In this document: in pieces, positions 1,173 to 9,033 of the stretch | Layout: every line of letters begins with the position of its first letter | Position numbering within the stretch: the first letter of the stretch is position 1 | Assembly (NCBI RefSeq): GCF_025290835.2 | Contig: NZ_JAOCQD020000002.1 | Location: 1 to 64,000 of the forward strand | Length of the DNA: 64,000 nt | Source: Aquabacterium sp. OR-4 | GTDB lineage: Bacteria; Pseudomonadota; Gammaproteobacteria; Burkholderiales; Burkholderiaceae_C | Reading direction: 5' to 3' | Program-made: the position numbers and the translations under genes | The notes under the pieces: generated by a model | What the model saw: only the letters and a program-made list of their open reading frames with translations | Databases searched by the model: none | Told to the model about the DNA's origin: nothing

Positions 1173-4718
<3,546 letters not shown>

Positions 4719-4944
4719 GCCCTTGCCCCATCAAGATTCGCACCCGCACTGGGGAGGTGCCTTTTGCGATTGACGCACCGCTTTGGGATTGTTGATGTGC
4801 TTGTTTGGTGCCTTATCGACTTTGTGCATTGGCGTGGTGCATGGCGCTTGCTGCGAGGGGAACGCTGCGCGGGGATGCTTCCTGGGGATCGGGGTTGCGG
4901 TTGGGTTAAGTCGGGGTGGATCGCGCTGGCGAGGGCTGGCGCGT

Positions 4945-5051
4945 GGCCAAGGGCGCCGGGTGGCCGGCTGGCTCCGTGTCCCCCGCCCTGCGGCTCGCGC
5001 CGCACGGCTCCTCCTTTCCCTGCGCCAGCCGGCCACCCGGCGCCCTTGGCC
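4945..5051. repeat. Inverted repeat, 28-bp arms, 51-bp loop
   Basis: The arm at 4945-4972 (GGCCAAGGGCGCCGGG...) is the exact reverse complement of 5024-5051. The stem would be very GC-rich and stable. It lies between two divergent operons, so a transcript terminator is unlikely to be its main role. It may belong to a dispersed extragenic repeat family. Confidence 0.85.
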
Positions 5052-5150
5052 CGATGCATTGCCGCCCGCGCTGAAGCCGCGACACGCAGCACCGCGGCCA
5101 AGCACAGGTGCGGCAGTGCCGTCACCACGCCTCGCTGCCCTGCTGCCCCA

Positions 5151-5182
5151 CCGCTTCACCGCTTCACCGCTTCACCGCCTCA
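5151..5182 (+). repeat. Tandem octanucleotide repeat CCGCTTCA, about 4 copies
   Basis: Three exact copies of CCGCTTCA are followed by one variant (CCGCCTCA), and a short GACT run follows shortly after. It is a simple-sequence tract in the non-coding spacer upstream of urease. Confidence 0.8.
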
Positions 5183-5277
5183 CGGGCTCACCGACTGACT
5201 GACTGCCCCAATTGCCTCAACTGCCCCGCAACAGCCCGCTGCCTGTGCCTGCGCTCCTCGCACCGCGCACTGTGTCT

Positions 5278-5529
5278 GCCTCGGGGCGGCCGGGCCTGCG
5301 GTGGGGCTCAACTGCTGGGCCCACCGCTGCGCGGCGGGCTTCCCTGCGCTGCTCAGCCAGGCGGCTTGTGCGGCGCAACTCCCTTCGCTCGCTCACGCTC
5401 GCTAGCGAGCGTGAGCGAGCGAAGGGAGTTGCGCCGCACAAGCCGCCTGGCTGAGCAGCGCAGGGAAGCCCGCCGCGCAGCGGTGGGCCCAGCAGTTGAG
5501 CCCCACCGCAGGCCCGGCCGCCCCGAGGC
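5278..5529. repeat. Perfect 252-bp palindrome with no spacer
   Basis: The two 126-nt halves are exact reverse complements around the centre GCTAGC at 5401-5406, checked base by base; pairing fails at 5277/5530. The arms hold CG-rich extragenic sequence (for example CTTCGCTCGCTCACGCTCGC) and no gene. Long perfect palindromes form cruciforms and are substrates of SbcCD nuclease, so one this long is either tolerated in this host or an assembly artefact. Confidence 0.9.
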
Positions 5530-5550
5530 CGCTCGATCCCCGCAAGCCAC

Positions 5551-5580
5551 CCGAAAGCGATCCGAAAGCGATCCGAAAGC
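5551..5580 (+). repeat. 11-bp tandem repeat CCGAAAGCGAT, 2.7 copies
   Basis: Two exact CCGAAAGCGAT units (5551-5561, 5562-5572) are followed by a partial third, about 130 bp before ureA. The unit length is near one helical turn, which would suit phased binding of a regulator, but no known site is recognised. Confidence 0.65.
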
Positions 5581-5678
5581 CACCCGCAAGCCCCCACCAC
5601 ACCAGGCAAGCACCCGGGCCAACCACGCCAGCAAAGCAAACCAGCCAAGCCCAATACCCAAAGCCGGCAAGAATCACA

Positions 5679-5693
5679 TGGCACCGAACATGC
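5679..5693 (+). promoter_or_regulatory. Sigma-54-like -24/-12 element before ureA
   Basis: TGGCAC-N5-ATGC matches the GG-N10-GC spacing of RpoN promoters (GG at 5680-5681, GC at 5692-5693), with a perfect -24 half and a weaker -12 half. Nitrogen control of urease through sigma-54 and NtrC is known in other bacteria. However, the implied start site falls only about 1-3 nt before the ureA ATG, which would give an almost leaderless mRNA, so this may be chance. Confidence 0.3.
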
Positions 5694-5706
5694 AGAGCAC
5701 GCCACC

Positions 5707-6009
5707 ATGGACCTGACCCCGCGCGAGAAAGACAAGCTGTTGATCTTCACCGCCGCCTTGCTGGCCGAGCGGCGCAAGGCCCGGGGCCTGAAGCTCAACC
5801 ATCCGGAGGCCGTGGCGCTGATCACCGCCGCCATCATGGAAGGCGCCCGCGACGGCAAGACCGTGGCGCAGCTGATGAGCGAGGGCAAGACCGTGCTCGG
5901 CCGCAGCGACGTGATGGAGGGGGTGGCCGAGATGGTGCCCGAGATCCAGGTCGAAGCCACCTTCCCCGACGGCACCAAACTGGTGACCGTGCACCAACCC
6001 ATTGCTTGA
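5707..6009 (+). CDS. ureA: Urease gamma subunit
   Basis: The 100-residue small subunit of the nickel enzyme urease, which hydrolyses urea to ammonia and carbon dioxide in the cytoplasm. It has the full family length, beginning [12 protein letters not shown], with the typical NHPEAVALI and GKTVAQLM stretches and the C-terminal [15 protein letters not shown]. It is the first gene of the urease run here; ureD, which normally precedes it, is absent upstream. No strong ribosome-binding site is seen before the ATG, which agrees with either weak initiation or loss of translational coupling to a missing upstream gene. Confidence 0.97.
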
Positions 6010-8316: not shown

Positions 8317-9033
8317 ATGCTCACCGTCAACAAACTCATCGCCCAGGGCCGCGGCCTGGCCAGCGTGCTGGTCAAGCGCGCCGCCAGTGTTGAACTGGAT
8401 TGGGATCTGCGGCAGAAAAGCCGCTTCGAGGCCACCGACAGCCAGGGCCGCCAGCTCGGCGTGTTTCTGCCGCGCGGCACCGTGGTGCGCGGTGGCGACA
8501 TGCTGCTGGCCGACGACGGCTCGCTGGTGCTGGTGAAGGCTGCTGCGCAGCCGGTGCTGGTGGTGCGCCACTGCGCCGAGCACGGCACGCCCTTCGACCT
8601 GCTGCGCGCCGCCTACCACCTGGGCAACCGCCACGTTGCGCTCGAGCTGCGGCCCGACCACCTGAAACTCGAACCCGACCATGTGCTGGCCGACATGCTG
8701 CGCCAGCAGCACCTGATCGTCAGCGCGTCGAACGAGGCCTTCGAGCCCGAAGCCGGCGCCTATGGCGGCGGCCACGGGCATGGGCACGGCCATGGCCACG
8801 ATCACGATCACGACCATGCCCACGCCCAGCCGCAGGCGGCCCCGGCCACGCCGCCCCAGGGCCGCGCGGCGCTGGCGGCCATTGCCGTGAGCGCCGCGCC
8901 GGTGCCGCATGTGCACGGCCCGGGCTGCGGGCACGACCATGGCCACGACCATGGGCAGGGCCACGACCATGGGCAGGGCCACGACCACGGCCACGGTCAT
9001 GTCCACGGCCCCGGCTGCCAGCACGGGCACTGA
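8317..9033 (+). CDS. ureE: Urease accessory protein UreE, His-rich tail
   Basis: The 238-residue nickel metallochaperone that delivers Ni to the urease apo-complex. Residues 1-145 are the usual UreE peptide-binding and metal-binding domains, with [11 protein letters not shown] and [11 protein letters not shown], whose histidine is the conserved dimer-interface ligand. The C-terminal about 90 residues form two His/Asp/Gly clusters ([15 protein letters not shown] and [15 protein letters not shown]) that bind extra nickel in related proteins. The tail also carries two GPGC motifs, one before and one after the second cluster. An 18-nt tandem DNA repeat (8941-8976) encodes part of the tail, so its length may vary between strains. 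Confidence 0.96.

Follow-up and report, generated by a model that had tools for sequence, protein, structure and literature searches.

The presence of a perfect 252-bp palindrome ahead of the urease genes of this Aquabacterium genome raises the question of how such a structure came to stand in a bacterial chromosome, since bacteria are generally believed to lose palindromes that are both long and perfect. The window, which is the whole stretch of DNA analysed here, comprises the first 64 kb of a 2.25-Mb contig (C2) in a genome of 6.63 Mb and 7 contigs, and the palindrome is located 5.3 kb from the contig start. Positions 5278-5403 and 5404-5529 read as each other's reverse complement throughout, with arms of 126 nt each, 0 mismatches and a spacer of 0 nt, and the perfect spacerless palindrome described in an earlier, sequence-only reading of the window is thereby confirmed. 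It is unique in its class within the 464 kb of the genome that were scanned. The runner-up among perfect inverted repeats of the window (spacer below 60 nt) has arms of 28 nt and lies in the same intergenic gap, at 4945-5051. A 400-kb sample of the genome (20 stretches of 20 kb) yielded longest perfect arms of 15 nt at spacers of up to 3 nt, 16 nt at spacers below 60 nt and 34 nt at spacers of up to 260 nt. Chance is excluded as the source of the palindrome. As single-stranded DNA it has a predicted folding energy of -210 kcal/mol, compared with a mean of -77.5 kcal/mol for shuffled sequences (sd 3.6, n=200), and the unpaired bases of the predicted fold are exactly the four of the central CTAG. 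A plasmid origin of the region was rejected, as a search with positions 5178-5629 gave no match in 72,556 plasmid records.

The palindrome belongs to a family of imperfect inverted repeats of approximately 240 bp, designated here IR2, whose copies are intergenic and scattered over the genome. The third genomic match of the window arm is at C1:1568445-1568564 (88% identity), with a weaker match at C3:807184-807287, and both belong to a composite repeat in which a hairpin element, IR1, is followed by IR2. The outer 34-44 nt of IR2 pair with one another (97% in the C1 copy, 89% in the C3 copy) and the interior is asymmetric. In the closest paralogue, at C1:1568, the outer arms are 34 nt long and 97% complementary, and the predicted fold (-103.5 kcal/mol) has a branched interior. 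Using the C1 copy as query, IR1+IR2 matches in the genome were found at C1:1568169, C3:806919, C2:1643458 and C2:1524443 among the best 8 of 234 candidates. The IR2 of the C2:1643 copy retrieved at least six copies at E<1e-20 besides that of the window, among the best 40 of 267 candidates (C2:1643599, C3:807068, C2:1524593, C1:2637961, C2:1651335 and C1:1568349); weaker matches outside these six are at C1:1288795, C1:1289075 and C1:25250. A pattern scan of genome contigs for an IR2 right-half motif gave 0 matches. Of the weak arm matches that were checked (L005-L010 and L013, with L034 and L035 from relatives), none has an IR2-like structure.

Related IR2 copies are also present in other genera of the family (genomes G041, G056, G043 and G050). 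The right arm matched at least 15 of 299 family genomes, own genome included, when the best two candidates per genome were considered, and the left arm matched 3 of 40 genomes, again including its own. Among the matches listed in the 40 and the 299 genomes searched, an adjacent plus/minus pair of arms was found in the own genome only. In 18 IR2 loci from other genera the perfect arms are no longer than 38 nt and each listed pair is spaced by at least 55 nt, while two of the 18 have no perfect arms of 14 nt or more. No zero-spacer palindrome occurs in these 18 loci, nor among the other strong copies of the own genome, of which there are six. The earlier reading had allowed that the arms might prove to be an ordinary repeat pair; membership of a dispersed repeat is borne out, but an ordinary pair is not what was found, since the zero-spacer mirror is present only here among the copies examined. 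A search of Rfam with seven sources carrying IR2 copies other than that of the window gave three matches, all below the gathering score, and identity with a known structured RNA was accordingly rejected for these sources. Literature on the IR2 repeat itself was sought and none was found. In other genera, relatives of IR2 can be seen as inverted pairs, at G041:C15:3636-4035, G056:C11:163548-163938 and G056:C12:362647-363001.

Comparison with the sister copies indicates which arm of the palindrome was replaced. The IR2 copies of the own genome were split at a common middle motif and their halves were compared by local alignment score, the C2:1651 copy entering as 160 nt, of which 43 nt made up its right half. 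Among the other copies, left halves score 39-198 against one another (15 pairs) and the right halves 35-205, the lowest value involving the shortened C2:1651 half. The right arm of the window scores 170, 57, 56, 55, 47 and 35 against the six right halves, the last of these against the 43-nt half, and the left arm gives the same scores, 170 to 35, against the six right halves in reverse complement. Against the six left halves, the left arm scores only 29, 15, 16, 18, 16 and 16; when set against the C1:1568 left half, 500 shuffled versions of it average 18 and reach 30 at most, and the score of 29, obtained with this C1 half, comes from 22 nt in the outer arm. The homology of the right arm extends into the original right flank of the element (5530-5565, forward strand), which aligns locally to the C1:1568 right flank with a score of 33 that was reached by 0 of 1000 shuffles. 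The left flank scores 12 against its C1:1568 counterpart, which 410 of 1000 shuffles equalled or bettered, and its homology is unrecognisable. Because the right arm matches the right halves of other copies, and its flank that of the C1 copy, while the left arm matches none of the left halves, the right arm (5404-5529, forward strand) is taken as the original IR2 right half, and the left arm (5278-5403, reverse strand) as a mirror of it that has replaced the usual left half. When the C1 and C3 left halves were searched for in positions 4601-5800, the best score was at most 31, and the ordinary left half is therefore missing from the assembly at this place. Copying of an arm from the C1 paralogue by ectopic conversion was rejected; the two arms share 100% identity, compared with 88% to C1, and therefore derive from one another. 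The suggestion of the earlier reading that the palindrome is newly formed is supported by the same observations, namely identical arms, a nearest paralogue at 88%, and a left arm that mirrors the right at a place where a different left half stands in the other copies.

These data suggest that the palindrome is probably an IR2 copy whose left half was overwritten by the mirror of its right half. Most likely it is a real and recent mirror copy that arose in a dispersed element by a type of mutation already known, though on an unusual scale. Template switches are reported to turn quasipalindromes perfect or more perfect, the switching polymerase leaving its template inside an imperfect inverted repeat, copying the nascent strand and then returning (PMC7202029). 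In the window, a replicating strand may have folded through the inverted outer arms of the IR2 element, after which the polymerase, at the middle of the element, would have begun to copy the complementary half instead. It would then have synthesised 126 nt back outward from the middle and, on reaching the outer arm, resumed its regular template, leaving the flanks in place. A strict snap-back can hardly give a spacer of zero, except if the hairpin loop was formed by the central CTAG, as it could have been. The mirrored arm is exact at a place where the relatives differ, and the pre-existing imperfect inverted repeat on which such a switch would draw is present in the closest paralogue and presumably was so in the ancestor of the window copy. 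Formation would have taken place in the living cell, probably recently, since the arms are without any accumulated mismatch. The return point on the left side is one that we infer, because homology between the left flank and that of the C1 copy cannot be recognised. The closest known counterpart is the quasipalindrome template switch of the Ripley model, described for E. coli lacZ reporters and a thyA hotspot, in which an imperfect repeat is likewise perfected locally from one arm; the flanks are kept in that case (PMC7202029), as the right flank is in the window. The lacZ reporter event treated in that source removes a 4-bp frameshift, whereas the event in the window would have replaced 126 nt and left no spacer. 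On this reading, the sister copies reveal how the palindrome originated, namely by mirror copying in a repeat that is older than it.

A second IR2 copy, at C2:1651335, appears to have undergone a change of the same kind. It has perfect arms of 70 nt (C2:1651340-1651409 and 1651489-1651558) separated by a 79-nt spacer, the whole spanning C2:1651340-1651558 (L143:1506-1724). Its left half closely resembles the C2:1524 left half (score 198), and the first 47 nt of its right half follow the C2:1524 right half with 2 mismatches. From position 33 outward, the right half mirrors the left half of this copy exactly, and the switch point would lie in the shared stem, since the start of the mirror at position 33 overlaps the 47-nt part that resembles C2:1524. 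For the outer right part, the score is 114 with the mirrored left half of the same copy but 56 with the right half of C2:1524, and the element measures 219 nt compared with 242 nt. Judged from its halves, this copy is a separate conversion in which left was copied over right, opposite to that in the window. Arm replacement is therefore seen in two of seven IR2 copies (the window and the six others), with opposite directions and different extents, and the native form of both converted copies is presumed from that of the remaining ones. Long conversions are seen in the own genome only, because none of the 18 loci from other genera has perfect arms above 38 nt.

The palindrome sits between divergent genes, with a sensor kinase ORF of 1181 aa (1173-4718, reverse strand; HisKA, HATPase_c and Response_reg domains) on the left, a neighbour of ureA that is conserved in congeners. 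The first gene on the right is ureA, encoding urease gamma (5707-6009, forward strand), and 177 bp separate it from the end of the palindrome. It is followed in order by ureB, ureC, ureE, ureF and a UreG-type (CobW/HypB/UreG) ORF. The translation of the ureE ORF has a long His/Gly-rich tail at its end (8760-9030). The palindrome had been placed by the sequence-only reading exactly where ureD is expected, which proved to be wrong. Ten of the 14 congeneric ureA loci listed besides the own locus were compared, over 12.5-13.5 kb each (tblastn, E up to 1e-10), and UreD was detected in none of the ten, while the divergent kinase gene is upstream of ureA in nine; ureD is therefore not expected at the palindrome. 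An intact ureD is present at C1:2390403-2391008 (L036:7272-8102), with no stop and a Pfam UreD match of 173.6-174.4 bits, and loss of ureD at the palindrome was rejected on both grounds. NCBIfam gave no name for the ureD-like protein. This gene is separated from the remaining urease genes and is preceded by a gene for an AMP-binding enzyme and by what resembles, by eye, a branched-chain-type ABC transporter. The distance from approximately residue 15 of the kinase to ureA is 176-328 bp in five of nine congeners, with the remaining four at 718-4,246 bp; in the window it is approximately 1,030 bp, exceeding that of most congeners, and this gap holds IR1 and IR2. Alignments of the gap with six congeneric gaps are short and confined to the vicinity of the two gene ends.

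Other explanations for the palindrome have to be weighed against a template switch. A sequencing or assembly artefact, in which a hairpin-chimeric fragment led to a mirrored consensus at a structure-rich place of poor coverage and the true left half went missing, is considered unlikely, though not negligible. Whole-genome amplification, end repair or a fold-back read could each be its source. Amplification is reported to yield artificial palindromes (PMC6218980), and one survey puts fold-back reads at approximately 0.55-0.6% of nanopore genomic reads (PMC12870357). The palindrome is also within 5.3 kb of a contig start, where assemblies are less safe, and the absence of an ordinary left half from positions 4601-5800 is what such an artefact would leave. 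Nevertheless, fold-back reads are described as virtually absent from the PacBio HiFi data of the same survey, and fold-back mirrors a read about its middle (PMC12870357), whereas the palindrome resumes unique DNA after 126 nt. Both sides of the palindrome run on into genes of conserved arrangement, and no alternative version of the place was found in the 7 contigs among the matches listed, with the arm and two other copies as queries. A one-off assembly artefact is further argued against by the C2:1651 copy, which carries its own conversion in the opposite direction and lies deep in the 2.25-Mb contig, approximately 600 kb from the nearest contig end.

It is much less probable still that two elements once stood head to head as an inverted pair and then lost their middle, such that rc(R) rc(L) L R became rc(R) R. 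Relatives of IR2 or IR1 do form inverted pairs elsewhere (G041:C15, G056:C11, G056:C12, L213 and L224), but this origin calls for two steps as well as a deletion with symmetry down to the single nucleotide, and the left side carries no mirror of the right flank, the alignment of the left flank with the mirrored right flank scoring 9, with 817 of 1000 shuffles as good. The position between divergent genes, 177 bp before ureA, might also invite the view that the palindrome is a terminator, protein-binding site or similar structure selected to regulate the kinase and urease genes. This we regard as scarcely credible, since the kinase-ureA gap is short in most congeners (the five of nine at 176-328 bp), the ten congeneric ureA loci contain no palindrome of the window kind (one 16-nt arm was found, in L083), and the Rfam search of the seven sources with copies other than that of the window gave nothing at the gathering score. 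No function is claimed for the palindrome itself.

If the palindrome arose by template switching, its persistence may reflect weak cleavage of hairpins, canonical SbcCD having gone undetected. The best SbcC match in the genome (TIGR00618) is 23 bits compared with a curated cut-off of 478.5, a strict cut-off that only one of 14 control genomes passes. For SbcD (TIGR00619) the best match is 51.6 bits against a cut-off of 77.65, which 8 of 14 controls pass; it is passed by 3 of 31 genomes searched, and the own genome is not among them. A distant Mre11/Rad50-like pair is present (L087:555-5315; C1:118500-127500), in which a SbcD-like Metallophos ORF (50.6 bits to TIGR00619) adjoins an ORF of 916 aa with weak AAA and SMC-type matches. 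The pair is one that we take to resemble YhaO/YhaN, and it may cut hairpins. The proposal of the earlier reading that the host tolerates the palindrome is thus plausible in so far as SbcC and SbcD are both below cut-off, although the existence of the distant pair counts against it. In E. coli, a 460-bp perfect palindrome is reported to kill cells that express SbcCD, recombination-proficient cells included (PMC4245961), and a 246-bp interrupted palindrome to lower viability in recombination-deficient cells only (PMC3315005). The 460-bp palindrome resembles that of the window in being long, perfect and chromosomal, and its host grows when SbcCD is not expressed, but it was engineered and is longer than 252 bp (PMC4245961).

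Natural perfect palindromes of comparable length are described as perfect inverted repeats of up to 284 bp in the mitochondrial genomes of nematomorphs, where template switching is one possible mechanism according to the authors (PMC6649704). These repeats differ from the window palindrome in being mitochondrial and coding; 110 of at least 15 bp were counted in four genomes, with contigs screened by read mapping (PMC6649704). The same source states that palindromes with co-evolving arms have previously been documented in bacterial genomes (PMC6649704), and a natural zero-spacer palindrome as long as this one in a bacterial chromosome was not found in the accessible parts of the open-licence literature. 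The size, the zero spacer and the repeated occurrence are what is unusual here, the kinds of mutation and of repeat being already known. Small dispersed palindromic repeats of the REP/BIME/REPIN type are, as described, similarly intergenic, dispersed, hairpin-forming and in part arranged as inverted pairs (PMC3733652, PMC2817692, PMC3116915). IR2 is set apart from them by its length of approximately 240 bp and by the lack of any link found to a RAYT gene. REP copy number is given as usually above 100 per genome (PMC2817692), compared with at least six IR2 copies (E<1e-20) besides the window, a count in which diverged copies can be missed. A single Y1_Tnp (IS200-like) ORF, at C2:1883641-1883922 (L152:1105-1818), is above the Pfam cut-off, but scores 46.9 bits against REP_Tyr_transpos, below the cut-off of 80. 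None of 12 IR1-core places and none of the 13 IR2 matches listed is near this ORF, and a RAYT transposase flanked by the repeat, as in REP/REPIN, was not seen.

The IR1 hairpin of the window (4945-5051, forward strand) consists of 28-nt perfect arms and a 51-nt loop with a conserved core, and IR1 also stands ahead of IR2 in the C1:1568, C3:807, C2:1643 and C2:1524 copies. The spacer between IR1 and IR2 (5052-5277, no strand assigned) is 226 nt in the window, in which short simple repeats can be seen by eye, whereas the C1 and C3 copies have spacers of 49 and 45 nt, respectively. The IR1 core pattern occurs at 6 places in the own genome with up to 2 mismatches and at 12 with up to 3, compared with 13 for a backward control; the window copy is matched only at 3 mismatches, where the control yields as many. 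Arm pairing was examined in 61 distinct elements, 55 from named records and 6 own loci, leaving out elements near an end or with repeated arms, and the own loci L120 and L044, in which the search pattern found no fit. A mean of 22.0 of 25 positions is paired, compared with 12.7 when arms are swapped between elements (95th percentile 18), so that IR1 arms vary from one copy to the next, although the two arms of any given copy correspond. Such matching fits homogenisation by template switching and selection for a hairpin alike. It is tentatively suggested, as a possibility to which we give rather less than even weight, that long-range hairpin template switching is ongoing in SbcCD-poor Burkholderiales, homogenising the arms of inverted-repeat elements in both directions and generating zero-spacer palindromes of up to 250 bp. 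If this is true, the variable but matching arms of these elements would have been shaped by template switching, and two copies would have been caught just after conversion. Confirmation of the palindrome by reads would make it a natural case for the reach of template switching, for the nuclease that limits it and for the upkeep of matching arms. The IR1 core is present in 57 stretches of named genome records (L173-L229), mostly from Burkholderiales, including Rhodoferax, Hydrogenophaga, Pelomonas, Aquabacterium and Polaromonas, and in some cases from Rhodocyclales.
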